This document shows, one piece after another, positions 1 to 23,141 of a stretch of DNA of 26,561 bases. The notes under the pieces were generated by a model that saw nothing but the letters and a program-made list of their open reading frames with translations, was not told where the DNA came from and made no database searches. The position numbers and the translations under genes are program-made. Origin of the DNA: DATDCY01 sp031406795 [NCBI: Candidatus Rokuibacteriota bacterium] (GTDB lineage: Bacteria > JAUVQV01); the NCBI GenBank assembly GCA_031406795.1, contig JANOHV010000136.1, positions 1 to 26,561 on the forward strand, written 5' to 3'. How positions within the stretch are numbered: position 1 is the first letter of the stretch; every line of letters begins with the position of its first letter.

Positions 1-677
1 TTCCCTCGATGATCGTGTTCGAGGGCTGGGCGGCCGCCGGCAAGGGCGGGACGATCAACGTCCTCACCGAGCGGCTCGACCCGCGCGGCGTGCGCGTCGT
101 GCCGATCTCGCCGCCGCGCTCGTCCGAGATGCGCTACCCCTGGATGTGGCGCTACTGGCAGAAGATCCCGGCCTATGGGCAGACGGTTATCTTCGATACC
201 TCGTGGTACCGCCGCGTGCTCACGGACCGCGTCGCCAGGAACGTCAAGAAGAACGTCTGGAAAGAGGCGTATCAGGACATCGTCGAGTACGAATCGCTGC
301 TCGGCGCCGAGGGGACGCTGATCCGCAAGTTCTGGCTGCAGATCAGCAAGAAGGAGCAGAGTCGGCGTTTCGAGAAACTGCTCGGCTCGAAGCTCACCTC
401 CTGGCAGGTCGCCGGAGAGGACGCGGACCAGCACAAGAAGTACGACCGCTATGAGACGGCAGTTGAGGAGATGCTCGCCCGCACGGATTTTCCGCACGCT
501 CCCTGGGTCATCGTCGAGGCGACCGACCGCTATCATACGCGGATCAAGGTGTTCGAAGAGATCGTCCGCGCCTTCGAGGATCGCCTTGCCGCGCACGTAC
601 CGCCGCCCCGCGCGCAGGCACCGGGCCCGGCGCCGAAAGCGCCGAAAGCGCCGAAAGTAACGCACCGTGGTCTTTGA
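1..677 (+). CDS. PPK2-family protein, probably non-catalytic (5' end outside window)
   Basis: This is a polyphosphate kinase 2-type P-loop protein. The frame is open to the left edge and enters the family's core strand (IVFEG) at once, so the ATG at 9 is probably internal and the true start lies upstream. The Walker A region reads GWAAAGKGG, with Ala (bases 30-32) where active PPK2 enzymes have Asp (GxDxxGKGG). The Walker B/lid region reads DTSWYRR (from base 195), with Thr in place of the usual Arg of DRSWY. Both changes argue against normal phosphotransfer. The C-terminus is a Pro/Ala/Lys tail coded by three tandem 9-base units (632-658). The gene overlaps the next PPK2 gene by 11 bases. 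In polyphosphate:AMP phosphotransferases (class II PPK2) two such domains are fused and the C-terminal one is the catalytic one, so this may be the detached N-terminal half. The family call is secure; inactivity is inferred. Confidence 0.85.
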   Translation, partial: PSMIVFEGWAAAGKGGTINVLTERLDPRGVRVVPISPPRSSEMRYPWMWRYWQKIPAYGQTVIFDTSWYRRVLTDRVARNVKKNVWKEAYQDIVEYESLLGAEGTLIRKFWLQISKKEQSRRFEKLLGSKLTSWQVAGEDADQHKKYDRYETAVEEMLARTDFPHAPWVIVEATDRYHTRIKVFEEIVRAFEDRLAAHVPPPRAQAPGPAPKAPKAPKVTHRGL

Positions 678-1428
678 CCGGCTCGACCTCTCGCTGAAGA
701 TCAGGCGCGCCGAATACGAGCGCGAGCTCAAGGCACTGCAGAACCGTCTCCACCTGCTCGGCTACCAGATCTACGTGAACCGTCTGCCGGTCGTCATCGT
801 GTTCGAAGGACCGGACGCGGCCGGCAAGGGCGGCGCCATCAAACGGCTGACCCAGAATCTCGACCCGCGCGGCTATGTCGTCTGGCCGATCGCCGCGCCG
901 CACGGCGACGATCGCGAGCGCCATTACCTCTATCGCTTCTGGCGCCGGCTGCCCGAGGACGGGCAGATGGCGATCTTCGACCGCTCCTGGTACGGCCGCG
1001 TGCTGGTCGAGCGCGTCGAGGGCTACTGCACCGCGGAGGCCTGGGCCCGCGCCTACCCGGAGATCAACCAGTTCGAGCGCCAGCTCGTTGCCCATGGGAC
1101 CACGGTGATCAAGCTCTGGATCCACATCTCCAAGGAGGAGCAGCTCAAGCGCTTCCGCGAACGCGAGCGGATACACTACAAATCCTGGAAGCTGACCGAG
1201 GAGGACTGGCGCAACCGCGGCAAGTGGGAGGACCACCTGCTGGCCGCCGACGAGATGATCCTCAAGACGAGCACGCACCACGCGCCCTGGGTCATCGTCG
1301 AGGCGAACGACAAACTTCACGCGCGCGTCAAGGTGCTGCGGACCGTGGAGCGCGCGTTGCGCGAGGGCCTCGCGCGGGGAGGCGCGAGCGCTTTTGAGCG
1401 GCCCGCCGACGAATGCTCTCCCGCCTGA
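667..1428 (+). CDS. Polyphosphate kinase 2 family protein (intact catalytic motifs)
   Basis: This is a 253-residue PPK2 enzyme, which moves phosphate between polyphosphate and nucleotides (AMP, ADP or GDP according to class). Visible motifs are Walker A GPDAAGKGG (residues 48-56, Asp50 and Lys54), NLDPRG (64-69), and the Walker B/lid segment DRSWYGR (105-111), followed by Arg/Lys-rich stretches expected to hold polyphosphate. The GTG start at 667 overlaps the upstream PPK2 gene by 11 bases in the +1 frame. A TAA at 658-660 closes this frame just upstream, so the two domains are separate reading frames and not an obvious recent frameshift. The pair resembles a split polyphosphate:AMP phosphotransferase, but substrate preference cannot be read from the sequence. 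The tolC-like gene begins 14 bases downstream. Confidence 0.9.
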   Translation: MVFDRLDLSLKIRRAEYERELKALQNRLHLLGYQIYVNRLPVVIVFEGPDAAGKGGAIKRLTQNLDPRGYVVWPIAAPHGDDRERHYLYRFWRRLPEDGQMAIFDRSWYGRVLVERVEGYCTAEAWARAYPEINQFERQLVAHGTTVIKLWIHISKEEQLKRFRERERIHYKSWKLTEEDWRNRGKWEDHLLAADEMILKTSTHHAPWVIVEANDKLHARVKVLRTVERALREGLARGGASAFERPADECSPA

Positions 1429-7942: not shown

Positions 7943-9338
<1,396 letters not shown>

Positions 9339-9349
<11 letters not shown>

Positions 9350-11444
9350 GCTCCTCGCCGTTCTGATCGTCCCGCTCCTCGCGGTCGCACTGGCCCTCGT
9401 GCTCGGCAGGATCCCCGGGGTCGATCTGCTCGCGCTGAAGGCCGGCGACGTGCAGCGGCGCCTGCTCGCCGACCCGCGGCGCGCCGACAGGCGGGTCGTG
9501 CTGATCGAGGTCGACCAGGCGAGCCTCGATCGTTTCGAGAGCGACAACATCGCCTACCCGTGGCCGCGCAGCCTCTACAATCCACTGCTCGAGCACTGCG
9601 CGCGCGGCGGCGCGAAGGCGGTGCTCTTCGATGTGCTTTTCAACAACCTCTCGCCCTGGGGGGAGGACACGGATACGGAGTTTGCGTCGGGGATCCGCCG
9701 GAGCGGCCGGGTGTTCCTGGCGGCCGCATTCTCGAATGGCGAGGCGGCCGGCGGTCCGCTCGACCCGCGGCTGAGCCTGCCCGTCGCGGGCCCGGCGCCG
9801 GCGGCACTCGTGCGCTCGGCCATTTCCCCGCCGCTGCCGGCGATCCGCGACGCCGCCGCCGGGATCGGCTCGGTGACGCTTCTGCCGGACGCCGACGGCG
9901 CCGTGCGGCGGCTGCCGGTCGGTGTGCTGTTCGGGGGGCGGCTGGTCCCCGGTCTCGCGTTCGCCCCGTTCGCCGCCGGGGCGGAAACGGCGCGATTCGC
10001 GCCGGGGCGGCTGCGCCTCGGCGGGTTGAGCGTGCCGATCGACGAACAGGGCCAGGTGCTGCTGCGCTACCACGGCCAGCGCAGCGAGTACCCGCGTTAC
10101 TCGGCGGCCGCCGTCATCACCTCCGCGCTCGCCGCCGCCGAGGGCCGCACGCCCGCGGTGCCGGCCGAGGTCTTCCGCGGCGCATACGTGATCGTCGGCG
10201 CCACCGCGCCGGGACTCCTCGACTTGAAGCCCACCCCGCTGGCCGCCACCGCGCCTGGTTTCGAAATCCACGTCGCCGCGATCGACAACATCCTGAATGG
10301 CGATTTTCTCGCGCCGGCGCCCCCGGCTGCGACCCTGGGGCTCGCTCTCGCGGCGGCGGCCTTCGTCGTCGCCGGAGTCATCTTCCTGCCCGCGGCCGCC
10401 GGGGCCGTCGCGGTGGCCGGCGTCTTTGGGGCGGTTCTCGCGACCCTGGCCGCCGCCTACCGAGCCGGCTGGTTCCTGGACCCGTGGACGATCGGCGTGT
10501 CGATCCTGCTGGCCGTCATCGGCGCCGCCGTCAGACGCTCCATGACCGAGGGCAGGGACAAGCGCTTCATCGCCGGGGCGTTCGCGCGCTACGTTTCCCC
10601 GAAGGTCGTCAAGCAGCTCATCGCGGACCCCAAGCGACTCGCGCTCGGCGGCGAGCGGCGCGACGTGACGGTCTTCTTCTCCGACCTGCAGGGCTTCACG
10701 TCGATCTCCGAGGGGATGGAGCCGCCGGAGCTGGTGGCCTTCCTCAACGAGTACACAACGCTGATGGCGGACATCATCACGGGGCCGGGCATCGACGGCA
10801 CGATCGACAAGTACATCGGCGACTCGGTGATGGCCTTCTGGGGGGCGCCGCTGCCGCAGCCGGACCACGCGCGCCGCGGCCTGCTCGCGGCGCTGGCTTG
10901 CCAGGAGCGCCTGCGCCCATTCTGCGACGGCCTGGTCGCGCGCGGCGGTCCGCGGCTGATCACGCGCATCGGCCTGAACAGCGGGACCTGCGTCGTCGGC
11001 AACATGGGCTCGCGCGACCGCTTCGACTACACCGCCATCGGCGACACCGTGAACCAGGCCTCGCGCCTCGAGGGGATCAACAAGGTCTACGGCACCCTGA
11101 TCATCGCCGCCGAGAGCACCTGGCTGGAGGCGCAGGGGGCGGCATTCGGGCGGCAGCTGGATCGCGTGCGCGTCAAGGGCAAGGCGGAGCCGGTGGCGAT
11201 CTACGAGGCGCTGGCGGCGGCGGGTGCGGAGTCCGAGGCGATGCGGGCGCTGGCGGCTGCCTACGCCGAGGCCTACGCCGCCTACCGGGAGCGACGGTGG
11301 GCGCGGACAATCGAGCTGGCCGAGGCGATCCTGCGCACGACCCCGGGCGACGGTCCCTCGATGACGCTGATCGCGCGCGCCCGTCCCTTCATCGTCGAGC
11401 CGCCGCAGGACTGGGACGGCGTCTGGACACTCAAATCAAAGTGA
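9339..11444 (+). CDS. CHASE2-domain class III adenylate cyclase
   Basis: This membrane-bound, 701-residue nucleotide cyclase has an N-terminal membrane helix (5-23), a large extracytoplasmic CHASE2 sensor domain (about 25-320; ends TAPGFEIHVAAIDNIL), three helices (about 332-400), a short linker RYVSPKVVKQL, and a class III cyclase domain (436-620). Catalytic residues look intact: metal-binding Asp449 (FSDLQGFT) and Asp495 (GDSVMAFWG), Lys491 in TIDKYIGD as expected for ATP selectivity, and the DYTAIGDTVNQASRLE segment with the transition-state Asn and Arg. cAMP is therefore the likely product. The ATG at 9339 overlaps the rarA stop. The 3' end overlaps the convergent thiL gene by 9 bases. 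The ligand of the CHASE2 domain is unknown. Confidence 0.93.
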
Positions 11445-12491
11445 TCGGCCCGCCTGCTGCGGGGAAAAATGCTCCCAGCTCTGCGGAACAAGCGGTGCGC
11501 GGCGGCCCTCTGCGTCGAGCACCGACACGCCGTCGCGCCGCGGCAGCACGCGCCCGATCGCCGTCACCCCCAGGCCCAGACGCTTCCCGAGCGCGAAGAC
11601 CCCGCGCTCGTCGCGCGGTCGCGCGGCGAAGAGCAGTTCGTATTCCTCCCCGCCATGCAGCGCCGCCGCGATCGGGTCGCGATCGAGCAGCCGCGCCGCG
11701 CGGGAGGTCGAGGCGAGCACCGGAAGCCGGTCCGCGTGAACTTCGGCCCCGACGTCGCTGGCGGCGCAGAGGCGGCCGAGGTCGCGCGAGATGCCGTCGC
11801 TGACGTCCATCGCCGCGCGCGCGAGCCCCGTGGCGGCGAGCGCGGCGCCGAACGCCAGGCGCGGCTCCGGGTGCAGGTGCCGCCGCACGCAGCGCCGCAG
11901 CGGGGCGGGAAGGCGGGCGAGTCCATCGCGCTCGAGGGCCGCGAGCCCCAGCGTCGAGCCGCCGAGATCTCCGGTCACGAACAGCTGATCGCCCGGCCGG
12001 GCGCCCTCCCGGGTCAGCAGGCGGGCGCCGGCCTCGCCCGCGAGGGTGAGCGAGAGGAAGATCCCTGCGGCGGAGGCACAGGTGTCCCCGCCGACGAGGG
12101 AGAAGCCGAAGCTGCGCGAAGCGCTGCGCAGGCCGCGCCCCAACGCCGCGGCGAATGACCGGTCGAGCCCGGGCGGCAGAGCCAGCGAGAGCAGCGCCCA
12201 GAGCGGGCGGCCGCCCATGGCGGCGATGTCGCTGGCGTTGACGGCCGCCAGCTTCCACCCCAGGTTGCCCGGGGGCGCCCAGCAGCGCCGGAAATGGATG
12301 TCTTCGGCGAGCAGGTCGGTGGTGAGCAGCAGCCGGGCGCCGCGCCCGGGGCGCACCACCGCCGTATCGTCACCGGGACCGATGACGACCAACCCGCGCG
12401 CGGCGCCGGGCTGCCGCCGCGGCCCTGCGAACATGCGCACGAGCGCGTCCTCGCCGATCTGCGACAGCGGCACTTCCCTGCGGGCGGGCAT
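11436..12491 (-). CDS. thiL: Thiamine-monophosphate kinase
   Basis: ThiL makes thiamine diphosphate from thiamine monophosphate and ATP, the last step of cofactor synthesis. This protein is 351 residues. Diagnostic pieces are IGPGDDTAV (38-46), LLTTDLLAEDIHF (55-67), WKLAAVNASDIAAMGG (79-94), VTGDLGGSTLGL, MDVSDGISRDL and LHGGEEYELLF, which bind Mg-ATP and substrate. The ATG at 12491 matches family starts (SQIGEDALV follows). An in-frame ATG at 12515 would add eight residues without a better ribosome-binding site. A TACAAT lies only six bases upstream of 12491, so a leaderless start is possible. The gene is divergent from the che genes and overlaps the cyclase gene end by 9 bases. Confidence 0.95.
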   Translation of the reverse strand: MPARREVPLSQIGEDALVRMFAGPRRQPGAARGLVVIGPGDDTAVVRPGRGARLLLTTDLLAEDIHFRRCWAPPGNLGWKLAAVNASDIAAMGGRPLWALLSLALPPGLDRSFAAALGRGLRSASRSFGFSLVGGDTCASAAGIFLSLTLAGEAGARLLTREGARPGDQLFVTGDLGGSTLGLAALERDGLARLPAPLRRCVRRHLHPEPRLAFGAALAATGLARAAMDVSDGISRDLGRLCAASDVGAEVHADRLPVLASTSRAARLLDRDPIAAALHGGEEYELLFAARPRDERGVFALGKRLGLGVTAIGRVLPRRDGVSVLDAEGRRAPLVPQSWEHFSPQQAGRSL

Positions 12492-12514
12492 GGCGGCATT
12501 GTAGCGCGGAAACA

Positions 12515-12542
12515 TTGAAATCCCGAGGCCCTCTGCTATGAT
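12515..12542 (+). promoter_or_regulatory. Candidate sigma70 promoter of the che operon
   Basis: TTGAAA (12515-12520), 16-base spacer, TATGAT (12537-12542). The expected transcription start near 12549 falls just before the cheR ribosome-binding site GGAGG (12551-12555), so the leader would be very short. Confidence 0.6.
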
Positions 12543-12560
12543 GCGGCACGGGAGGTTGAC

Positions 12561-13460
12561 ATGGAGGCGGTGGCTGCTGCGGCAACGGGATGCTCGTCCG
12601 GCTCCGGCGCATATGTGCACCTGCGCCGACTGATCCACGACCGCACGGGGTTCGACATCGAGTCCTACAAGGACCGCTTCATCGAGCGGCGGGTCGCCAT
12701 TCGCCTGCGGGCCACCCACCACGAAGGGCTCGGGGATTATCTCAAGTATCTCTCGTGCGAACAGGCGGAGATGGACCGGTTGCTGCGCTGCCTGACGATC
12801 CACGTGAGTTCCTTCTTCCGCAACGCCAGCACCTATGCGGCCATCCGCGCCGCGGTGTTTCCCGTGCTCTTCACCCCGGGCGCCTCGCGCCACCCGCGCA
12901 TCTGGAGCGTCGGCTGCTCCCGCGGGGAGGAACCTTACAGTCTGGCGATCCTCGCGCACGAGTACCTCGGGGCGGCGGCGCGGAGCTGGGACGTGCAGAT
13001 CCAGGCCATCGACATCGACGACCGGGTGCTGACCGAGGCGAAGGCCGGCGAGTACACCTGGCCGCAGGTCGCCGATCTCGACGCCGCCCGCCGCGAGCGG
13101 TATTTCGTCCACGGGGAGCGCTGGCGCCTCGTGCCGGAGATCCGCCGGATGGTGCGCTTTCACCGTCGCGACATCCTGATGGATCCGCCGGGAGGCGAGT
13201 ACGACTGCATCCTCTGCCGCAATCTGCTGATCTATCTCGACCGTCCGGGACAGGAGGCGGTGCTCGAGCGTTTCGCGCGCGCACTGCGGCCGGGCGGTTT
13301 TCTCGTCCTCGGCCGGACCGAGGTTTTCGTCGGCGCGGGCCGCGAGGCCTTCGAGGTCGTGGACCCGCGCGAACGCATCTACCGCCGACTCCGCGCCAGC
13401 GGGCCGGCTCCCGTCGGTGAAGCGCCCGCGCCGTGCGCGGCGTCAAGGGGGAGATTATGA
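12561..13460 (+). CDS. cheR: CheR chemoreceptor glutamate methyltransferase
   Basis: CheR transfers methyl groups from S-adenosylmethionine to receptor Glu residues. It is 299 residues. The N-terminal helical domain ([24 protein letters not shown]) is followed by the SAM-binding domain with [17 protein letters not shown] (family: CS-x-GEEPYS), AIDIDDRVL (acidic residue for SAM), FHRRDIL, and [10 protein letters not shown]. No C-terminal receptor-tethering pentapeptide partner or TPR extension is visible. The ATG follows GGAGG by 5 bases. The stop overlaps the receptor gene's ATG (ATGA at 13457-13460), so the two are translationally coupled. No cheB is found in the window. Confidence 0.95.
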
Positions 13461-14704
13461 GGGCCAAGCTTGTCCTGAGCTTTCTGCTGGTCGTCCTGTC
13501 GATCGTGGCGGTGAACGCCATCTTCTATTACACGGTCCACGATGAATTGAAGCGCCTGGTGCTCTCCACCGCCGTCGGCATCGCCGTGGGCATGAGTCTC
13601 GGCTATTTCATCTCCCGCTCGATCACCTCCGGCATCTCACGGCTCGCGGAGGTGACGCGCGAGATCGCGGCCGGCGACCTGACCAAGGAAGTGTCCACGC
13701 AGGGCGACCGGGAACTGGTCGCCCTCGCCGACGCCTTCCAGATGATGCTCGGGCAGCTGCGCATGGTCGTCAGCCAGATCCAGGTCAGTGCCGGGACGCT
13801 CAGCGGGTCGGCGGCGGGCTTTTCCGCGACAACGCAGCAGATGAGCACCAGCGGCGAGGAGATCGCCTCGGCGACCGAGCACATCGCCAAGGGCGCCGAG
13901 ATGCAGGTCGAGGTTGTCGAGCGGGCGGCCGGGCGGATCCGCGAGGGCGCCGCGGCGGTGACGCGCATCGCGGAGCGGGCGCGGACGGCGGCCGAGGCCA
14001 GCGCCGTCGCGGGGGAAACCGCGCAGCGCGGCGGCACCGCCGCCACGGCCGCCCTGGAGAAGATGCGGCAGGTGTTCGAGAAGATGGAGGCGTCGGTCGA
14101 CCTGGTCCACGGCTTCGGCGAGCGGACCCAGAAGATCGGCAAGATCGTGGATGTCATCACCGGGATCTCCCAGCAGACCAACCTGCTGGCCCTCAACGCC
14201 GCGATCGAGGCGGCACACGCCGGCGAGTACGGGCGTGGCTTCTCCGTGGTCGCCGACGAGATCCGCAAGCTCTCGGAGGCGACGCGCCGCTCGGCCGAGG
14301 AGATCACCGCACTGGTCGGCGAGATCGGCCAGGAGAGCGCCAAAGTCCTGGTCTCGATGGAGTCGGGGACTCTGGAGATCCGCGAGGGTCGCGAGGTGAT
14401 CGACACGGTGCGCGGTTCGCTGGACGGGATCATCCACGGCACCGTCGAAGTCGCCCAGGGGGTCAGGGAAATCTTCACGCTCGCGGCGGAGCAGGCGCGC
14501 GGGTCCGCGGAGATGGTCAAGGCCACCGACGAGATCTCCCGCATCGCCGAGGACAACGCGGCGGCGACCGAGGAGGCCTCGGCCGCCACCCAGGAACTCA
14601 CCGCCTCCCTGGAGCAGATGGCCGGCTCGGCGCAGGAACTGGCGACACTCGCCGATGGGCTGCGCCAGACGGCGAGCCGATTCAGCGTCACGAGCCGGGG
14701 GTGA
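13457..14704 (+). CDS. Methyl-accepting chemotaxis protein without a periplasmic sensor domain
   Basis: This chemoreceptor is 415 residues from the ATG at 13457, which has AAGGGGGAG upstream and overlaps the cheR stop; an in-frame GTG at 13433 is less likely. Two membrane helices (about 5-27 and 34-53) are joined by only about six residues (VHDELKR region), so there is no ligand-binding domain outside. A HAMP domain (about 52-105) and a full signalling helix bundle follow. The hairpin tip is canonical: [20 protein letters not shown] then [19 protein letters not shown] (about 234-272). It may sense membrane or cytoplasmic state, or mainly scaffold CheA/CheW. It is surely part of the cheR-cheW-cheY-cheA unit. 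Confidence 0.95.
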
Positions 14705-14707
14705 GGC

Positions 14708-15211
14708 GTGGATGATTCGCAGCGCGCGGCGGGGGCGGGCGACGAGCTGCGCCTGCTCTTCTTTCGCAGCGCCGGCGAGCGCTTCGCGCTGGACGTGGCC
14801 TACGTGCGCGAGATCATCCCCGCGCAGACGATCACGCTGGTCCCCTTCGTGCCGCCCACGGTCGCGGGCATCATCAACCATCGCGGCACGATCTACACGC
14901 TGATCCGTTTTGCCCGGCTGGCCGGACTCGGCCGGGATCAGGAGGGAACCGTTGCACTGCTGCGCCTGCCGGAGATGGCGGTCGGCATCGCCATCGAGTC
15001 GGTCGAGGGCATCGAGCGGGTGTCCGGCCGGCTGATGAACACGGCCACCGAAGGGGCGCATCCCCCAACCGTTCCCTTTCTGCGTCGCGCGTGCGATCCC
15101 TCCGGGCGGTTCGTGCACGCGATTGACGCAGAGCTGTTGGTCGACACCATCTACCGGCTCCCCGAGCTCGCGCGCGCCGGGGAGACCGCACAGGAGGCCA
15201 GCCATGAATGA
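14708..15211 (+). CDS. cheW: CheW coupling protein
   Basis: CheW is the cytoplasmic adaptor that joins receptors to CheA, here 167 residues. It shows the SH3-like CheW fold sequence: LLFFRSAGERFALDVAYVRE, IIPAQTITLVPFVPPTVAGI, INHRGTIYTLI (family: N-x-RG-x-I-x-P), and VGIAIESVEGIERV. The start is GTG at 14708, three bases after the receptor stop. An AGGAGG near the gene's end (15192-15197) serves the next frame. The stop overlaps the next ATG as ATGA (15208-15211). Confidence 0.92.
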   Translation: MDDSQRAAGAGDELRLLFFRSAGERFALDVAYVREIIPAQTITLVPFVPPTVAGIINHRGTIYTLIRFARLAGLGRDQEGTVALLRLPEMAVGIAIESVEGIERVSGRLMNTATEGAHPPTVPFLRRACDPSGRFVHAIDAELLVDTIYRLPELARAGETAQEASHE

Positions 15212-15375
15212 CGCTTGTGCACGAGGCCCGGCAGCGGCGACGCGTGGAGGAGGCTCCGGCCTCGTCCGCGGGCGTCGAGTCGCCCACCATCTCCCTGAAC
15301 CCGGAAGTTGCCGCGGCGGCGCGGCGCTGCGCGCAGCGCGGGAGCGACGATGACGGCCCGGGTGCTGATCGTTGA
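15208..15375 (+). CDS. Small 55-residue ORF coupled between cheW and cheY
   Basis: The ATG at 15208 overlaps the cheW stop (ATGA) and has AGGAGG ten bases upstream. The frame reads MTLVHEARQRRRVEEAPASS, then a middle VESPTISLNPEVAAAARR and an acidic end, and stops 26 bases inside cheY. Third codon positions are mostly G or C (about 43 of 49 counted), as in real genes here. A rival ORF from 15204 to 15353 in another frame has better ribosome-site spacing but far poorer third-position GC. I recognise no family. It fills the 138 bases that otherwise separate cheW from cheY. Confidence 0.5.
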   Translation: MTLVHEARQRRRVEEAPASSAGVESPTISLNPEVAAAARRCAQRGSDDDGPGADR

Positions 15376-15718
15376 CGACGCCCTCTTCATGCGCACCATG
15401 CTGCGCAATATCTTCGTGGAGAGCGGCTTCGAGGTGGTCGGCGAGGCCGGCAACGGCAGCGAGGCGGTTGAGAAATACCGCGCGCTGCGGCCCGACCTGA
15501 CCACCATGGATATCGTGATGCCGGAAAAGAACGGCATCGAGGCGCTCAAACTGATCATGCTCTTCGATCCGCGTGCCCGTGTGGTCATGTGCAGCGCGCT
15601 CGGCCAGGAGTCGCTGATCATCGAGGCGCTCGAGGCCGGCGCGCGGGACTTCATCGTCAAGCCATTCAAGCCGGCGAAGGTCGTCGAGGTCGCGCAAAAA
15701 ATTCTGGCGGCCGAATAA
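15350..15718 (+). CDS. cheY: CheY-type response regulator
   Basis: This 122-residue single receiver domain has Asp9/Asp10, phospho-acceptor Asp54 (TMDIVMPEKNG), Ser82 (MCSALGQE) and Lys104 (IVKPFKP). It resembles the CheY type found next to CheA in many non-enteric bacteria. The start ATG at 15350 lies inside the small upstream ORF, and its TAA stop shares a base with the cheA ATG (TAATG, 15716-15720), so translation is coupled to CheA, its presumed phosphodonor. No flagellar switch gene is in view, so the output may be the pilus/secretion motor. Confidence 0.95.
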   Translation: MTARVLIVDDALFMRTMLRNIFVESGFEVVGEAGNGSEAVEKYRALRPDLTTMDIVMPEKNGIEALKLIMLFDPRARVVMCSALGQESLIIEALEAGARDFIVKPFKPAKVVEVAQKILAAE

Positions 15719-17898
15719 TGGATCTGTCGAAATACCGGCAGCTCTTCCTCGACGAGTGCCGGGAGCACCTGCAGGTGATCAATCGTGAACTCCTGCGCCT
15801 CGAGCAGGAGGGCGAGACCGGGGGGGTGGACGCGCTGTTTCGGGCCGCCCACTCCATAAAGGGGATGTCGGGGTCGATGGGGTACGACTCCGTCGTCGCG
15901 GTCAGCCACGCGCTCGAGGATATTCTTGATCGCCTGCGCAAGAAGACGCTTGGGGCGGATTCCGGGCTGATGGGGCTGCTCTACGAGGGCGTGGACTCGC
16001 TGGGGGCGCTCGTCGCCGAGATTGAAGAAAAAGGGGCGACGCAGCTCGAAGTCGCCGGGCTCGTGCTGCGGTTGCGGGACGCTTCGCGCGGGATGATACC
16101 CGCGCCGGTGGCGGTGGAAATCGGGGAGGCCTTGTGCCTGCCGGCCGTCGGCGTCGCGCCACCGGCAGACCCCCCGATGCCCGTGATGCCACCCGCAGCG
16201 CCACCGGTGATGCTACCCGTGACGCCGGCGCCAGCGATCGCTGCCGCGCCGCCGGCAATACCCTCCGAAGACCTGGGGGCCGATCTGGTCGCGGCCCGCG
16301 GCGGCATCTTCTCCCTGGAGCCCGAGAAGCTCGCGATGGTGCGGGATTTCGTGCGCAGCGGACTGGTCCCCTACGCCTGCCAGCTGCGCGTTTCCAAGGA
16401 CTCAGCGGCGCTGTGCGCCCGGAATTTCATCATCCTCGGCCGACTGGCCAAGACGGGAATGGTGCTCGCTTCGAATCCCAGCGTCGAGGAAGTCCGCGCC
16501 GGGATCGGCCGGGAGCTCGTCGAGGCGCTGCTGCTGACCGAGCGGCCGGAAGACCAGCTCAGGTCCCAACTGCTGGCGATTCCCGAACTCGTCGAACTGC
16601 AGCTCAGGCGCCTGAGTATCGGCGGCGTGGAGCGGGGGGCGGGCGCCGCGGCGGGGGAGGGCGCGCCGACCCTGCTCGCCCCGCGCGAGACGACCATCGA
16701 CCGGCCCGCGGGCTCGGTGCCCGGGCTCGCCGACCGCTACGCGCCGAAAAAAGCCTCGACGGTGCGCGTCGACACCCGGGTGCTCGACGACCTCATCAAC
16801 ATCGTTGGCGAGATGCTGATCACGCGCGAGCGGCTCCAGGAGATCGGCCGCGAGTTGGAGAGCGAGGAGCTGCATCTGAACCTGGATCGCCTGCGCGTGC
16901 TCGTGCGCGGTTTCCAGGACACGATCATGACCGTGCGCATGATGCCCCTCGCGCTCGTCACCGACCGGCTCCCGCGCATCGTCCGCGACCTCGCCCACCA
17001 GTCGGGCAAGCAGGTCGCCTTCGAGGTGCTGGGACAGAACATCGAACTGGACCGGGCGATACTCGAAGAGCTCAACGACGTGCTGATCCACCTGGTGCGC
17101 AACGCCATCGACCACGGCGTTGAGTCGCCGGAGCGCCGCACCGCCGCGGGCAAGCCGGCCAAGGCCGTAATCCGGGTGCGCGCCGGGCGCGAGCGCGACT
17201 GGGTCTGGATCCGCGTCGAGGACGACGGGCGCGGCATGGACCCCGAGCGCATCGCCCGCGCCGCGGCCGCGCGCGGCCTGGTCAGCGCGGAGCGCGTCGC
17301 CGCGATGGAGCCCCGCGAAAAGCTCATGCTCTGCTGCCTTCCCGGCGTCAGCACGGCCGAGACCGTCACCGACATTTCCGGGCGCGGCGTAGGCATGGAC
17401 GTGGTCAAGTCCCGCGTCGACGCGTTCGGCGGCGCGTTGCAGATCGACTCGCAGCCGGGCCGCGGCGCGGCCGTCACGCTGCGCCTGCCCCTGACGCTGG
17501 CGATCATCCGCATCCTGCTCGTGGAGGTCCGCGGGCAGGAATATGGGCTGCCCGTCTCGCACGTGCTGCGCACGGCCCAGATGGACCCCAACGAGATCGA
17601 GTGGTCGCAGCAGCAGCCGCTGCTGCGGCTGGGCCGGCGGCTGGTGCCGCTGCACGACCTCGGGGCGCTGGTCGGACTGCCGCCGCGCGACCTGCGCGCC
17701 CACCCCGGCCTTTTCCTCGCGGTCTCGGAGTTCGGCGAGCGCGCCGCCGGGCTGGCGGTCGACCGGCTGCTCGGCACCTACGAGGTGGTGATCAAGCCGC
17801 TCGGCCCGCCCCTGAAGCGGGTGCGCGGCCTGGCCGGGGTCACCGTTATGGGCGACGGGCGCACGGTGCTGCTGCTCGACCTGGCGGCCCTGATCTAG
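15718..17898 (+). CDS. cheA: CheA sensor histidine kinase
   Basis: CheA is the cytoplasmic kinase of a chemosensory array, 726 residues. P1 phosphotransfer domain: His45 in AAHSIKGMSGSMGY. A Pro/Ala/Val-rich linker follows (about 135-185). Next comes a P2-like regulator-binding segment (about 200-300). P3 dimerisation starts with STVRVDTRVLDDLINIVGEM. The P4 ATPase domain has the N box HLVRNAIDHG (about 458), G1 DDGRGMD (about 502) and G2 GRGVGMD (about 555). The C-terminal P5 CheW-like domain begins near LRLPLTLAIIRILLVEVRG. All catalytic motifs are intact. The ATG at 15718 overlaps the cheY stop by one base; the frame is open further upstream but inside cheY. A motor ATPase gene follows after 28 bases. 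Confidence 0.97.
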   Translation: MDLSKYRQLFLDECREHLQVINRELLRLEQEGETGGVDALFRAAHSIKGMSGSMGYDSVVAVSHALEDILDRLRKKTLGADSGLMGLLYEGVDSLGALVAEIEEKGATQLEVAGLVLRLRDASRGMIPAPVAVEIGEALCLPAVGVAPPADPPMPVMPPAAPPVMLPVTPAPAIAAAPPAIPSEDLGADLVAARGGIFSLEPEKLAMVRDFVRSGLVPYACQLRVSKDSAALCARNFIILGRLAKTGMVLASNPSVEEVRAGIGRELVEALLLTERPEDQLRSQLLAIPELVELQLRRLSIGGVERGAGAAAGEGAPTLLAPRETTIDRPAGSVPGLADRYAPKKASTVRVDTRVLDDLINIVGEMLITRERLQEIGRELESEELHLNLDRLRVLVRGFQDTIMTVRMMPLALVTDRLPRIVRDLAHQSGKQVAFEVLGQNIELDRAILEELNDVLIHLVRNAIDHGVESPERRTAAGKPAKAVIRVRAGRERDWVWIRVEDDGRGMDPERIARAAAARGLVSAERVAAMEPREKLMLCCLPGVSTAETVTDISGRGVGMDVVKSRVDAFGGALQIDSQPGRGAAVTLRLPLTLAIIRILLVEVRGQEYGLPVSHVLRTAQMDPNEIEWSQQQPLLRLGRRLVPLHDLGALVGLPPRDLRAHPGLFLAVSEFGERAAGLAVDRLLGTYEVVIKPLGPPLKRVRGLAGVTVMGDGRTVLLLDLAALI

Positions 17899-17926: not shown

Positions 17927-19729
17927 GTGAAGACGACATCGGAAAACCTGTTCGGCATCCTTGCGCGCGTCGGCGTGCTTTCGGCCGACCAGGTCCAGGA
18001 GCTCTCGCAGCGCTGGGCGGCGCACCTGCGCGCGAAGTCCCCCCGGCGTCGCGCCGCGGGGCGGCCCGGCCCGGTCGAGAGCGAGCGCCCCGACCCCGAC
18101 CTGCTGGATTTCATCGCCGGCCAGCGGGTGCGCTCCGCGAAGGACGGCCGGCGCCTGATCGGCGAGCGCGAACTCTACGAAGGGCTGGCGCTCGGACTCG
18201 GGCTGCCGTTCCAGCGGATCGACCCGCTGCGGCTGGACATGGACCTGGTGACGCGCACCATCCCGCGCCCCTTCGCGGTGCGCCACCTGATGGTGCCGCT
18301 CTCGCTGGCGGGCGACGTGTTGACGCTGGCCACCGCCGACCCGTTCAACGACGAGGGTCTCGAGAACATTCAGCGCTCCTGCGGCTACACGATCCAGGCG
18401 GTCGTCGCGGTCAAGAGCGACATCATCAAGACCATCACCGAATTCTACGGCTTCAAGTCCTCGGTCGTGATGGCGGAAGCCGGCATGGCGCCCGCGGTCG
18501 GCGCGCTCTCGAGCCTCGAGCAGTACGTGCGCCTCAAGTCCGTCAAGGAGATGGAGGCGACCGATCACCACATCGTCAACGCGGTGGATTTTCTCTTCAC
18601 GTACGCCTTCGACCAGCGCGCCAGCGACATCCACTTCGAGCCGCGGCGCGAGCGAGCGCGGATCCGCTTCCGCATCGACGGCCTGCTGAACACGATCCAC
18701 CAGGTGCCGAACGTGATCCACCCGGCGATGGTCTCGCGCATCAAGATGCTCTCGCGCCTGGACATCGCCGAGCGGCGCCGCCCCCAGGACGGCCGCATCA
18801 AGGTCGCGCACAAGGGCCGCGACTTCGAGATCCGCGTCTCGACGCTGCCCACCGCCTTCGGGGAGAAGGTCGTGATGCGCATCTTCGATCCGGAGATCCT
18901 GCTGCAGGACATCGCGCAGCTCGGCTTCACGCCCGAGCAGCTGCAGGTCTACCAGCGCATCGCCTCGGCGCCGCACGGGATCATCCTGGTCACCGGGCCC
19001 ACCGGCAGCGGCAAGACGACTACGCTGTACTCCACGCTCTCGGTGCTGGCGACCGAGGAGCGCAACGTGACCACCGTCGAGGACCCGATCGAGATGATCC
19101 ACGAGGACTTCAACCAGGTCGGCGTGCAGCCCCAGGTCGGCCTGACGTTCGCGACGACGCTGCGGCACATCCTGCGCCAGGACCCCGACATCATCATGGT
19201 CGGCGAAATCCGCGACGGCGAAACTGCCGAGAACGCGATCCAGGCCGCGCTCACCGGCCACCTCGTGCTCTCGACGCTGCACACCAACGACGCCCCGACA
19301 GCGATTACCCGGCTCGCGGACATGGGGATCCCCCGCTACCTGGTCGGCTCGACGATTCTGCTCGTGGTCGCCCAGCGGCTGGTCCGCCGCATCTGCCCGC
19401 ACTGTGTCGAGGAGTACGCGCCGACGCCGGAGGAGCTGGCCTCGCTCGGGCTGGCGGCCGGCGCCCGGCCGGTGCGGCTGCGGCGGGGGGGCGGCTGCGC
19501 CCAGTGCCGGTTCACCGGACACCACGGGAGAACCGGCCTGTTCGAGCTGATGCCCGTCACCCCGGGGCTGCGGGCGCTGATTCACAGCGGGGCCGATCAG
19601 GGCGCGATCCTGGTCGCCGCCCGCAAGGAGGGGATGCGCACGCTGCGGGAGTCGGGCGTGCAGAAGGTGCTGCGCGGCGTCACGACGCTTGCCGAGGTGC
19701 TCCGCGTCACGATGGGCGACGTGGCCTGA
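17927..19729 (+). CDS. GspE/PilB-family secretion or type IV pilus assembly ATPase
   Basis: This hexameric cytoplasmic motor powers type IV pilus extension or type II secretion; it is 600 residues from the GTG at 17927. An N-terminal MshEN/GspE_N region (TIPRPFAVRHLMVPLSLAGD to ITEFYG) precedes the ATPase core: NDR region QRASDIHFEPRRERARIRFR, Walker A GPTGSGKTTT (about 357-366), Asp box VTTVEDPIEM, Walker B RQDPDIIMVGEIRDGETAE, and His box TGHLVLSTLHTND. A zinc tetra-Cys motif is present (ICPHC about 489-493 and CAQC about 525-528), as in GspE and PilB. GspE and PilB cannot be separated by eye. It sits 28 bases after cheA on the same strand, probably in one operon, which hints that this Che system acts on pili or secretion. 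Confidence 0.93.
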   Translation: MKTTSENLFGILARVGVLSADQVQELSQRWAAHLRAKSPRRRAAGRPGPVESERPDPDLLDFIAGQRVRSAKDGRRLIGERELYEGLALGLGLPFQRIDPLRLDMDLVTRTIPRPFAVRHLMVPLSLAGDVLTLATADPFNDEGLENIQRSCGYTIQAVVAVKSDIIKTITEFYGFKSSVVMAEAGMAPAVGALSSLEQYVRLKSVKEMEATDHHIVNAVDFLFTYAFDQRASDIHFEPRRERARIRFRIDGLLNTIHQVPNVIHPAMVSRIKMLSRLDIAERRRPQDGRIKVAHKGRDFEIRVSTLPTAFGEKVVMRIFDPEILLQDIAQLGFTPEQLQVYQRIASAPHGIILVTGPTGSGKTTTLYSTLSVLATEERNVTTVEDPIEMIHEDFNQVGVQPQVGLTFATTLRHILRQDPDIIMVGEIRDGETAENAIQAALTGHLVLSTLHTNDAPTAITRLADMGIPRYLVGSTILLVVAQRLVRRICPHCVEEYAPTPEELASLGLAAGARPVRLRRGGGCAQCRFTGHHGRTGLFELMPVTPGLRALIHSGADQGAILVAARKEGMRTLRESGVQKVLRGVTTLAEVLRVTMGDVA

Positions 19730-19745: not shown

Positions 19746-22613
19746 TCAGGACTCGCCGAGCAGCCCCAGTTTGCGCATCATCTCCCGGACGCCGGCGTAG
19801 TCGGCGTCCGTCGTCAGGGCGAATCCGGTGTAGTCGGCGTAGAGCGCCTCGAACACCGCCGCGCCCGCGGCCCCGTCGCGGCTGAGCGCCAGCAGTGCGC
19901 CCCGCAGGGCTTCCTGGATGTCGACGGGCAGCTCCCGCGCGGCGCAGATGTTGAACTCCGGGATCGGCGGCGACTGCGCCAGCGTCATCAGGCCTTCGGG
20001 CTCGTACTGCTCCGCCACCGACTCCATGACCGCGCCGGCGTCGTAGTCGCCCCGCAGCACGGCCGCAGCGACGGCGTCGTGGTACCCCAGGTGCTCGAAC
20101 GCCCCGAGCCGCTCGACGCCGACTCCCGCCTCGAGCAGCAGCGCGCGCGGCACGATGTGACTCGACGTGGAGTTGACGTCGCCGAACGCGAAGCTGCGGC
20201 CCTGCAGCTCCGCCAGGGTGCGGAGCCGGGCGTCGCGCCGGCAGATGATCGCCGCGTGCTGGAAGGGTTTGCCGCGACGCAGCGCCGTCGCGAGCAGCAC
20301 GGCCCCGTAGCGCCGGTGGGCTAGCACGTAGGTCGACGGCGTCAGGTAGGCGAATTGGGTCCGGCCCTCGCCGAGGTCGCGCACGGCTTCGCCGAAATCG
20401 AGGGCGACATTGAGTTCCACCGGACGCCCCAGGGCCTGTCCCAGGTACTCGGCAAGCGGCGTGAAGCGCCGGTGCATCCGGGCCGGCGACTCGAGCGGGA
20501 CCACCCCGAAGCGCAGCGCGCCGCGGGACTCCTCCGAGAGGACCTTGAAGCGGGAGACTTCGGCCTCCAGCAGTTCGGTGTCGCCGTTGATGCCGCGCAG
20601 TCCCTGATTGATCCGCAGCGCGAGGGCCCGGTTGCTGCGCGGCAGGTCGATCACCGGCACGAGCGCCAGGCGGATCTGGCGGCAGCCTTCGCGCTGCTCG
20701 TTCAAGGCGAGCGACATGCGCCCGATCCCTTCCGAGACCCGCTCGGCGGCGGTGGCGACGTGGCCCCCGGCGAGAGCCTGTTCGCCGTTGGCGATGCTGA
20801 TGCGCTGCGCGGCCGCGGCCAGGAGTTCCATCGCGCCGCGGATCTTGTCGGCCTCGCGCTTCTGCTCGGTCGTGCCCTGCGCCAGGAACTGCGCCATCTG
20901 GTCGAGCCGGCCCATGGTCTCCCGGACCCGGGTCAGGCCCCGGGACTGTGACTGCGCCGCCTCCTGGATCGCGGTCGCCTTCTCGAGCGAGCGGCCGGAG
21001 CTCTCGACGATCTTCTCGAGCGCCGCGCCGGCCTCGCGCGCGAAACCGAAGCCGGCGTCGACCTCGGTCCTGCCGTCGCGCATCGCCTCGACCGCGAGGG
21101 CGACCTCGGTGCGCACGGCGTGGATCAGCTCGGCGATCTCGACCGTCGAGCGGGCGGTCTTGACGGCGAGGCTGCGGATCTCGCCGGCGACGACCTGAAA
21201 GCCCCGCCCGTGCTCTCCCGCCTGCGCCGCGAGAATGGCGGCGTTGAGCGAGAGCAGTCCGGTGCGGTCGTTGACCTCGTCGATGACGTCGAGGATCTCG
21301 CCGATCTTGACCGAGCGCTCGCCGAGGGCCTGCACGGCTCCCGCGCCGCGTTCGACCGCGCGCCGGATCGCCTCCATCCCGTCGAGGGTGCGCCGCACCG
21401 CGCGCAGGCCGAGCTCCTCCGCCTCCTGGCGAACCTGGGCCGAGCTGGCCGCCGATTCGCGCGCCCCTTCGCCCACGGCGCGGATCATCTCGTCGACCTC
21501 GTGCACCGCCGCCAGCGTCTCGGTGGAGACCCCCGAGAGGTGCTCGGTGCCCCAGGTCAGCTCGCGGATGGTGTGCGCCATTTCGCCGATCGTCCCCGCG
21601 ACCTCGCTCACGGTGGCGGTGAGCTCCTCCGAGCGCTGGTGCACCTCGCCGGTGTTGACGGCCATCTCCCGCGCCGCGGCGTGCACCGTGTCGGCCACCG
21701 CGGAGAGCCCTTCGATGTCCTCGGCGAGCTGCCCGATGGAGGCGCCGAGCTCCTCCATCGAGGAGGCGATGGCCGCGAAGGAATCGGTCTCGACGGTCGT
21801 GGCGTCCACCACCGCGGCGGACTCCTTCTCGGTCCTCGCGGAGATCGCGGCGACGCGACGGGAAACCTCGTGGATCCGCAGGATGACGGCGCCCAGCGAT
21901 CTGATCGAATTGCGCAGGCTCTCCCAGAGCAGGCCGAGGTCGCCGCTGGTGCGGCCCTGCAGATCGACGGTCAGGTCGCCGACCGCCAGCGCCGCGGTCG
22001 CCTCGCGCATCCGCGCCACCGGCCGGACGACCAGGATGCGGATCAGCCACCAGAGCATCAGACCCATGGCGAGCACGCCGGCGAGCGACCAGACCAGCGC
22101 GACGGCGACCAGCGAGGATCCCGCCTGGAAGACTTCGCGCAGCGGGATGGAGACCTTGGTCGCCCCGAGCAGGTTCTTTTCCCGCCCGTGACAGGAGTGA
22201 CAGTCCGGCCCGTTGAGCAGCGGCCGGTAGAAGTGCAGCCGGTCCCCGCGCTGTTCGGAGAAGGGCCGGGGGTCGGCGCGCAGCCGATCGAGGGCGGCGC
22301 GCTCGGGCGTCTCCGTGCTCTTGGTGAAAGCTTCGCGACCCGTGTCGGCCAGCACGTCGACGCCCGCGACGCCCGCGTGACTGCGCAGGTCCGCGACGAG
22401 GGCGTGGGTGATGTCGGCGCGGCCTTCCTTCATCACGCGTTCGACACTGCGGGTGATGATCTCGGCCGTGGACTCGGACTGCTGCCGGGCCACCGTAAGG
22501 AGGCCTTCCTGCATCAGGTGCAGAACGCCGAAACTGACGGAGACGATGCCGAAAAGGGGGAGGAGGGTGGACAGCAGCAGAATCCTGACTTCGAGCCGCT
22601 GCCACCAGCGCAT
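19746..22613 (-). CDS. Chemoreceptor-like fusion: haem-c periplasmic sensor, HAMP, MCP domain and C-terminal PhnD-like binding domain
   Basis: A 955-residue protein. Membrane helices lie at about 11-34 and 166-196 and enclose a periplasmic domain with a covalent-haem motif CHSCH (138-142) in PLLNGPDCHSCHG. A HAMP domain follows (about 193-245), then a long MCP-type helical region (about 250-690) whose tip is divergent: VNDRTGLLSLNAAILAAQAG at about 447-466. Residues about 699-952 form a type 2 periplasmic-binding-protein domain of the phosphonate/phosphate (PhnD) type: GVVPLESPARMHRRFTPLAEYL, LTPSTYVLAHRRYG, FAFGDVNSTSSHIVPRALLL, and GYHDAVAAAVLRGDYDAGAV. By topology this domain is cytoplasmic, unlike ordinary PhnD. 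c-type haem sensors on chemoreceptors are known in Geobacter (GSU0582, GSU0935). The ATG at 22613 has only a weak ribosome site. The gene is convergent with the motor ATPase gene. Confidence 0.92.
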   Translation of the reverse strand: MRWWQRLEVRILLLSTLLPLFGIVSVSFGVLHLMQEGLLTVARQQSESTAEIITRSVERVMKEGRADITHALVADLRSHAGVAGVDVLADTGREAFTKSTETPERAALDRLRADPRPFSEQRGDRLHFYRPLLNGPDCHSCHGREKNLLGATKVSIPLREVFQAGSSLVAVALVWSLAGVLAMGLMLWWLIRILVVRPVARMREATAALAVGDLTVDLQGRTSGDLGLLWESLRNSIRSLGAVILRIHEVSRRVAAISARTEKESAAVVDATTVETDSFAAIASSMEELGASIGQLAEDIEGLSAVADTVHAAAREMAVNTGEVHQRSEELTATVSEVAGTIGEMAHTIRELTWGTEHLSGVSTETLAAVHEVDEMIRAVGEGARESAASSAQVRQEAEELGLRAVRRTLDGMEAIRRAVERGAGAVQALGERSVKIGEILDVIDEVNDRTGLLSLNAAILAAQAGEHGRGFQVVAGEIRSLAVKTARSTVEIAELIHAVRTEVALAVEAMRDGRTEVDAGFGFAREAGAALEKIVESSGRSLEKATAIQEAAQSQSRGLTRVRETMGRLDQMAQFLAQGTTEQKREADKIRGAMELLAAAAQRISIANGEQALAGGHVATAAERVSEGIGRMSLALNEQREGCRQIRLALVPVIDLPRSNRALALRINQGLRGINGDTELLEAEVSRFKVLSEESRGALRFGVVPLESPARMHRRFTPLAEYLGQALGRPVELNVALDFGEAVRDLGEGRTQFAYLTPSTYVLAHRRYGAVLLATALRRGKPFQHAAIICRRDARLRTLAELQGRSFAFGDVNSTSSHIVPRALLLEAGVGVERLGAFEHLGYHDAVAAAVLRGDYDAGAVMESVAEQYEPEGLMTLAQSPPIPEFNICAARELPVDIQEALRGALLALSRDGAAGAAVFEALYADYTGFALTTDADYAGVREMMRKLGLLGES

Positions 22614-22703: not shown

Positions 22704-23141
22704 CTACTTCTTCGACCGCCCATAGATATAGCTGACCAGTTCGACGAACTTCTCGTCCATATCCCGCAGCAGCGTGGCCATCTGACCGGCCATGCGCGCC
22801 ATGATCCGGTACCCGACGGCCGGGTTGCGGACGGCGAGCTTGTCGAACTCGGTGCGGCGGATCAGCAGCACTTCCGCGTCGTGCACCGCCTGTGCCGAAG
22901 CGCTGTGCTGGCCGCCGCGGATGAAGGAGATCTCGCCGAAACACTCGCCCTCCTTGAGCTGCTGCAATGTCTGCTGCTGCTCGGCGTTGACCTGCTTGTC
23001 GATCTTGACGACCCCGCTAACGACGATGAAGAGCGCCGCGTCGGCCTCGTCCTCGGCGAAGATCGGCTGGCCGGCGCTGAAGGTCCGGCGCTCGGAGATC
23101 AGGGCCAGCTGCTCGATCGTCTGGTCGTCGAGAGTTGTCAA
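22704..23141 (-). CDS. Stand-alone cyclic-nucleotide-binding-type (Crp-like) domain protein
   Basis: This 145-residue protein is one beta-barrel cNMP-binding fold plus a C-terminal helix (about 107-145), with no DNA-binding HTH. FSAGQPIFAEDEADAALFIV, VSGVVKI and CFGEISFIRGGQHSASAQA fit the family. In the phosphate-binding cassette the usual Arg (as in GQERSA of E. coli CRP) is His79 here, so cAMP or cGMP binding in the normal way is doubtful. The start appears to be TTG at 23141, the only position giving a usual N-terminus; no strong ribosome site was found. It lies on the same strand as, and upstream of, the haem/PhnD receptor gene, so it may modulate the same response. The function is otherwise open. 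Confidence 0.85.
   Translation of the reverse strand: MTTLDDQTIEQLALISERRTFSAGQPIFAEDEADAALFIVVSGVVKIDKQVNAEQQQTLQQLKEGECFGEISFIRGGQHSASAQAVHDAEVLLIRRTEFDKLAVRNPAVGYRIMARMAGQMATLLRDMDEKFVELVSYIYGRSKK

Follow-up and report, generated by a model that had tools for sequence, protein, structure and literature searches.

The window analysed here, the whole 26,561-nucleotide stretch of contig JANOHV010000136.1 from a Candidatus Rokuibacteriota bacterium, encodes on its minus strand (positions 19746–22613) an intact 955-residue open reading frame (ORF), in which a methyl-accepting chemotaxis protein (MCP) is fused to a C-terminal PhnD-type solute-binding domain. We propose, with a probability of about 0.55, that the protein is a chemoreceptor that senses at both ends: a periplasmic haem domain that would answer nitric oxide (NO) or redox state, and a cytosolic domain that would bind an oxyanion-like ligand. 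Since the arrangement recurs in other bacterial genomes, it looks, as judged from sequence, like a family of two-sided sensors.

Architecture and membrane topology of the receptor

The N-terminal part of the receptor consists of transmembrane helix 1 (TM1; residues 11–29, positions 22527–22583), a periplasmic sensor domain of the sCache_heme type (residues 34–165, 22119–22514) that carries the c-type haem attachment motif CHSCH (residues 138–142, 22188–22202), and transmembrane helix 2 (TM2; residues 168–186, 22056–22112). They are followed by a HAMP domain (residues 194–235, 21909–22034) and an MCP signalling domain (residues 423–573 by the extent of the Pfam match, 20895–21347), the conserved hairpin tip of which reads LSLNAAILAAQAGEHGRGF (residues 454–472, 21198–21254). 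The MCP coiled coil is long and closes with the canonical MCP ending LEAEVSRFKV, which stands directly before the PhnD/PtxB-type domain (PF12974; residues 702–939, 19797–20510). All these features share the minus strand of the gene. The MCPsignal match scores 121.8 bits against a cut-off of 34.6, and the HAMP match 21.1 bits; it misses the curated HAMP cut-off of 25, which all nine fusion relatives scanned with Pfam pass. A spurious ORF was ruled out by the guanine–cytosine content at the three codon positions (0.74/0.48/0.93) and by the homologs. The combination of MCP and PhnD domains, co-linear in 41 further ORFs (confirmed with Pfam in nine), is on that evidence beyond chance. An earlier note on this DNA had assigned the CHSCH motif and the HAMP, MCP and C-terminal PhnD-type domains, and this assignment is borne out by Pfam together with a profile of the periplasmic domain.

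The periplasmic domain of the window receptor stays below the Pfam cut-offs of two sensor families: Mcp40H-20_sensor (PF21563) gives 20.3 bits with the whole protein and 24.6 with the domain alone (cut-off 27), and Tll0287-like gives 15.3 and 19 bits (cut-off 24.1). PF21563 is matched at E ≤ 0.01 by nine of nine members scanned and Tll0287-like by three of nine. The profile built from the window periplasmic part and eight relatives matches PDB 3b47 (E 2.9e-13) and 3b42 (E 1.7e-10), the latter presumably being GSU0935, and no other solved structure at E ≤ 0.01. Structure 3b47 is the c-haem sensor domain of the Geobacter chemoreceptor GSU0582, the ferric form of which is reported to have a high affinity for NO (PMC3460858). 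For the sCache_heme (DUF3365/Tll0287) family, a 2026 preprint describes one signalling member that releases NO slowly and forms no stable oxygen complex (PMC12889525). By these matches the window periplasmic domain is a c-haem Cache of the GSU0582/GSU0935 kind, with covalent haem predicted from the CHSCH motif, and the parallel with Geobacter haem-c chemoreceptors drawn in the earlier note holds.

The two membrane segments of the window receptor were identified by hydropathy, and nothing comparable follows the second. Three positive charges before TM1 and four after TM2 lie on the predicted cytoplasmic sides. The HAMP domain and MCP bundle are cytoplasmic in known MCPs. Because the MCP bundle separates TM2 from the PhnD domain and no later hydrophobic segment is present, the PhnD domain is predicted to be cytoplasmic, as the earlier note had deduced from topology. 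The family alignment, which contains 42 fusions (41 from relatives and the window gene), has two membrane segments before residue 260 in 25 members, three in 12 and four in five; beyond residue 260, hydropathy gives no segment in 41 of the 42. The exception, L128, has a single weak segment, located within the PhnD domain.

The PhnD-type domain and its putative ligand pocket

The C-terminal domain matches the Phosphonate-bd profile PF12974 over its full length (profile positions 1–242 of 242; 220 bits, E 3.7e-65, cut-off 27), and the placement of residues ~699–952 in the PBP2/PhnD superfamily withstood this profile check. The domain exceeds the cut-off of the broader subfamily TIGR01098 (132 bits, cut-off 112) and falls short of that of the PhnD equivalog TIGR03431 of NCBIfam (122.6 bits, cut-off 261.1). 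The best solved match is PtxB, with an E value of 2.1e-25 for the window domain and, for 5o2j, of 4.4e-50 with the family profile. The solved PhnD-domain matches that bear telling depositor names are periplasmic or transport-system binding proteins. None of the 20 window ORFs scanned contains an ATP-binding cassette (ABC) transporter domain; the PhnD domain is instead fused behind an MCP.

In Pseudomonas stutzeri PtxB, the STS-H motif is described as consisting of S124, T125, S126 and H155; Y94 also contacts a ligand oxygen, D16 stabilises the capping tyrosine, and Y49 and Y203 are named as well (PMC5700983). In Te_PtxB, where Y55 and Y208 are read as the equivalents of Y49 and Y203, the substitution Y208F is reported to have essentially abolished methylphosphonate binding (PMC5700983). 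In our alignment, PtxB S124/T125/S126/H155/Y94/D16/Y49/Y203 correspond to S815/T816/S817/H845/Q785/L707/F740/F887 of the window receptor. The aligned serines and threonine lie in an STSSH oxyanion-clamp motif (residues 815–819, positions 20157–20171), and F887, at the place of the capping Tyr203, lies in the family motif PEFNIC (residues 885–890, 19944–19961). Among the 42 fusions, S815 is kept in 42, H845 in 40, S817 in 32 and T816 in 31, and the exact STS in 26. F887 is present in 40 members, L707 in 36 and Cys890 of PEFNIC in 31; position 740 is Phe in 22 and Tyr in 11, and position 785 is Gln in nine, His in 17 and Tyr in eight.

The alignment indicates that the STS-H clamp is largely kept and that the phosphite-specific cap is replaced. 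The kept clamp and the changed cap lead us to infer that the ligand is oxyanion-like and probably different from phosphite, as Asp16 and Tyr203 of the PtxB cap are replaced by Leu707 and Phe887. Identity with PtxB or PhnD was rejected, as the TIGR03431 cut-off is missed and the PtxB cap residues are absent. Conservation of the pocket was assessed with 35 sequences of mutual identity below 80%. The eight mapped positions have a mean entropy of 0.98, compared with 1.56 for the whole domain, and 2.8% of random sets of eight positions are equally conserved (P 0.028). A variant of the test with six of the eight positions (P 0.0046) was post hoc and is not used.

Recurrence of the fusion and its chemosensory neighbourhood

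The first relative was reached through the GspE/PilB gene that neighbours the receptor gene. In the genome of bacterium BMS3Bbin08 (G006, locus L028), a 961-residue open frame matches window residues 6–952 with 38% identity; the other eight genomes reached via GspE/PilB gave no such full-length match. The phylum of G006, which we take to be Nitrospirota, is listed in the taxonomy dump as unclassified Bacteria. It was searched in 295 genomes with the linker and PhnD domain as the query (356 residues), and 114 genomes matched at E ≤ 1e-22. The 75 listed matches at E ≤ 5.2e-54 fall in 67 genomes by hand count, and 74 of them begin at or before query residue 23; among the matches listed, no weaker one begins before residue 88, so that most of the linker is missing from them. 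An oddity of a single genome is thus rejected, matches being present in 67 genomes out of the 295. Forty regions were opened: 39 contain the 41 ORFs carrying MCP and PhnD, and L135 encodes a tandem PhnD protein instead. Twenty further regions yielded the complete fusions L183, L184 and L187, the partial frames L185 and L186, and fifteen other PhnD proteins.

A CxxCH motif is found within the first 200 residues of 29 of the 42 aligned fusions, the window gene included. One of the 13 members without it (L124:4747–7641) matches sCache_3_2, and L103, L131–L134 and L138 have the PhnD domain and, by length and alignment, no haem-type domain. Since 13 of 42 members have no CxxCH and all 42 have PhnD, PhnD is the module that stays constant in this alignment, and the variation lies in the N-terminal sensor.

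At the thresholds used in other phyla, more diverged fusions would escape. Fifteen of 345 genomes from the phylum of G003 matched at E ≤ 1e-40, and none of the 17 listed matches spanned the linker. At E ≤ 1e-50 there was no match in 198 genomes from the phylum of G002 or 148 from that of G001, samples that apparently resample the phylum of G003, as the first-listed genomes repeat. The phylum of G009 gave no match in 140 genomes at E ≤ 1e-40. A scan of genome contigs with the PhnD part returned 39 pattern matches and no relative. With full-length tblastn against plasmids, no single place covered 80% of the query among the best 5000 records, and the two-piece matches opened were separate solute-binding protein and MCP genes.

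Most relatives lie in a conserved che operon, which in the fullest loci has the order CheY – CheA – ExeA-like AAA – CheW – MCP-PhnD – second MCP – CheW – HEAT-repeat protein – CheR – CheB. In 39 fusion loci, counted within the stretch fetched, which in some cases ends at a contig end, CheW is found in 33, a CheY-type protein in 32, CheA in 26, CheR in 25, and the ExeA-like AAA protein and the second MCP in 24 each. For the AAA, HEAT, CheB and DUF4388 proteins, the Pfam identification comes from a single locus each. The ExeA-like AAA ATPase and the HEAT-repeat protein (L109:4505–5320 and 11423–13390) are unusual che partners. Most of 14 second MCPs end like KEVEGFKL or EVEGFKLG, the type of sequence that precedes the PhnD domain in the fusions (EVSRFKV in the window). 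Their tip is of the AAILA type, as in the fusion, in five of the 14, and the other nine fall outside the tip pattern. The variable place of the tip is Leu in 38 of the 42 fusions and Glu in four.

The window has a che cluster of its own on the plus strand, found in the ORF scan and running towards the receptor gene: CheR (12561–13460), a second MCP with HAMP and MCPsignal domains and a tip unlike that of the receptor (13433–14704), CheW (14708–15211), a CheY-type receiver (15308–15718) and CheA (15589–17898, the longest frame, the true start being uncertain). The GspE/PilB-type ATPase gene (17927–19729, plus strand) is convergent with the receptor gene. Upstream of the cluster, a protein with CHASE2 and adenylate/guanylate cyclase domains is encoded (8943–11444, plus strand), and a cyclic nucleotide-binding protein adjoins the receptor gene (22704–23141, minus strand); through these two proteins a cyclic-nucleotide link to the receptor is possible. 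Two adjacent genes for PPK2-type polyphosphate kinases lie at 9–677 and 667–1428 (plus strand).

In a tree with five transport solute-binding proteins as the outgroup, all 42 C-terminal regions are united in a single group (support 100/99), in which that of the window branches first. An expanded tree of 59 rows was made by adding 18 PhnD domains (standalone, tandem and other) and the partial fusion L186, and by dropping seven of the 42 fusions for thinning. In it the 36 fused domains remain grouped, with weak support (80/10, 81/88); a long branch with the non-chemoreceptor PhnD domains L171 and L177 is placed inside the fusion group, and the window domain shifts next to L103/L110, again weakly supported (81/68). 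In all six loci scanned in the phylum of G006 (L169, L171, L173, L176, L179 and L181), the standalone PhnD gene has a histidine-kinase gene as its neighbour, so a signalling origin of the fused domain is plausible. A RecG tree, with usable matches from 17 of 26 genomes searched, places the window organism on a long branch outside a supported clade (98/99) of 12 fusion-phylum genomes, the forks beside it being weak (58/34).

Other combinations of PhnD domains were also met. Tandem PhnD-PhnD proteins of approximately 570–620 residues (L135:3967–5718, L172, L175, L145, L148 and L149) occur in the phyla of G006 and G003, some of them apparently with an export signal at the N-terminus, and in the protein encoded by L180:2341–4602 (minus strand) two PhnD domains are joined to a DsbD-type membrane domain.

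Proposed two-input sensing, rival explanations and known systems

In the proposed mechanism, the periplasmic haem domain would answer NO or redox state, and the signal would pass via TM2 and HAMP. The cytoplasmic PhnD-type domain would close over a small oxyanion-like ligand using the STS-H clamp. The descending helix carries this domain where it nears the membrane, close to HAMP and the adaptation region, so opening and closing of the domain could bias the shared MCP bundle. The two inputs would be summed at the hairpin tip and delivered to CheW/CheA. As the operons of many relatives contain an adjacent second MCP without PhnD, the array would be a mixed one, with the PhnD input among its modules. 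The two-input sensor suggested in the earlier note gains indirect support from a partly kept pocket, from the constancy of PhnD beside a variable sensor and from the conserved che operon of the relatives; its ligand and signalling side we infer from sequence. With somewhat less confidence, and as a tentative generalisation, we suggest that the fusions form a family of transmembrane receptors reading both sides of the membrane. Their C-terminal cytosolic PBP2 (Venus-flytrap) domain would be a second input to the adaptation bundle and, within a dedicated chemosensory system, the module that stays constant; its ligand would be an oxyanion outside the known ligands of PtxB and PhnD, and internal metabolite status would be coupled to external NO or redox state.

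Several observations weigh against this two-ended reading. In the pocket, F740 and Q785 vary among members (58.6th and 68.5th percentile) and T816 is close to the average (46.6th), so specificity may differ among members or binding may be lost in some; the result of the pocket conservation test is modest. A single-sequence AlphaFold model of the last 296 residues has a mean predicted local distance difference test (pLDDT) score of 38.8. The window receptor lies outside the che operon of its relatives, and has another tip than the MCP encoded next to the window CheA; its kinase may be encoded elsewhere in the genome. Six of the 39 loci of relatives have no CheW match: L121, L122 and L131 have no che match at all, and L132–L134 have a CheY-type match only.

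In the main rival explanation, the PhnD-type domain serves docking or assembly: it would hold a partner in the cytoplasm, such as CheR/CheB, the AAA or HEAT protein encoded in the operon, or a different adaptor, and ligand binding would be vestigial. It would account for the location of the domain behind the canonical MCP end, where other MCPs carry a tail, for the recurrence of operon partners among relatives, and for the three of eight pocket positions that are not above average in conservation, with the exact STS in only 26 of 42 members. We consider it unlikely, since S815, H845 and F887 are retained in 42, 40 and 40 of the 42 members, the mapped positions are jointly conserved above the domain average, and the window gene lies outside the operon. 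The haem domain as the sole sensor, with PhnD as a passive appendage, is improbable: it is PhnD that is constant and the N-terminal sensor that varies, and L103, L131–L134 and L138 have PhnD without a haem-type domain, although the haem motif is found in 29 of 42 members and PhnD-less haem chemoreceptors exist in GSU0582 and GSU0935 (PMC3460858).

Binding of phosphite in the manner of PtxB is still less probable. PtxB is the best solved match and the STS-H clamp is present, but the cap residues Asp16 and Tyr203 are exchanged, Phe stands at 887 in 40 of 42 members, and the equivalent Y208F change in Te_PtxB is the one reported to have cost it methylphosphonate binding almost entirely (PMC5700983). 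Hardly credible is a PhnD domain that is exported and acts in the periplasm. The location of the solved relatives would fit it, as would L188–L190, three scanned proteins in which PhnD has its usual layout as the N-terminal domain before kinase or HD modules. A periplasmic PhnD domain was rejected on hydropathy, 41 of the 42 fusions having no segment after TM2, and the domain follows HAMP and MCP modules of cytoplasmic type. For the preferred reading, a sensor at each end, the haem-less variants offer naturally separated inputs, so the two-input question is directly testable.

The component parts of the receptor are of known kinds, and as far as we searched their arrangement is undescribed. 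An MCP with a C-terminal PF12974 domain had no recognisable description in the literature searched, mostly at title and abstract level; the words phosphonate and PhnD are absent from the main text of the haem Cache preprint, and PF12974 is not among the architectures in its Figure 2 legend (PMC12889525). The earlier note knew of no described system with the triple architecture, which stands within that scope; the architecture is more than a single case and recurs as a family.

GSU0582 and GSU0935 share with the window receptor the order TM – periplasmic CxxCH domain – TM – HAMP – MCP, whereas their described layout stops at the MCP domain (PMC3460858). The binding proteins PtxB, HtxB and PhnD share the PF12974 domain and the STS-H oxyanion clamp but are described as periplasmic proteins of ABC transporters (PMC5700983); the window domain is MCP-fused, predicted to be cytoplasmic, and has other cap residues. 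In AioX/ArrX-type proteins (PMC5908839) and PhnD-kinase proteins, a PhnD-type domain also serves signalling, but there it is free or N-terminal, whereas in the MCP fusion it is C-terminal and predicted to be cytoplasmic. The standalone PhnD-type genes beside histidine-kinase genes resemble the AioX-type sensing pair. An unfused counterpart is found on Pseudomonas putida plasmid pBS1142 (L001, 3635–8735), where EAL, PhnD-type solute-binding protein and MCP genes stand in a row, the latter two side by side as separate genes. In the cases known to us, the input from solute-binding proteins reaches chemoreceptors on the outer side; the receptor described here carries such a domain, complete and placed after the MCP end, on the predicted inside, and this arrangement is found again in many genomes, with its own operon. 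If a ligand is bound there, one polypeptide can set an internal metabolite against a haem signal from outside, and control can enter via the membrane-proximal C-terminal end.

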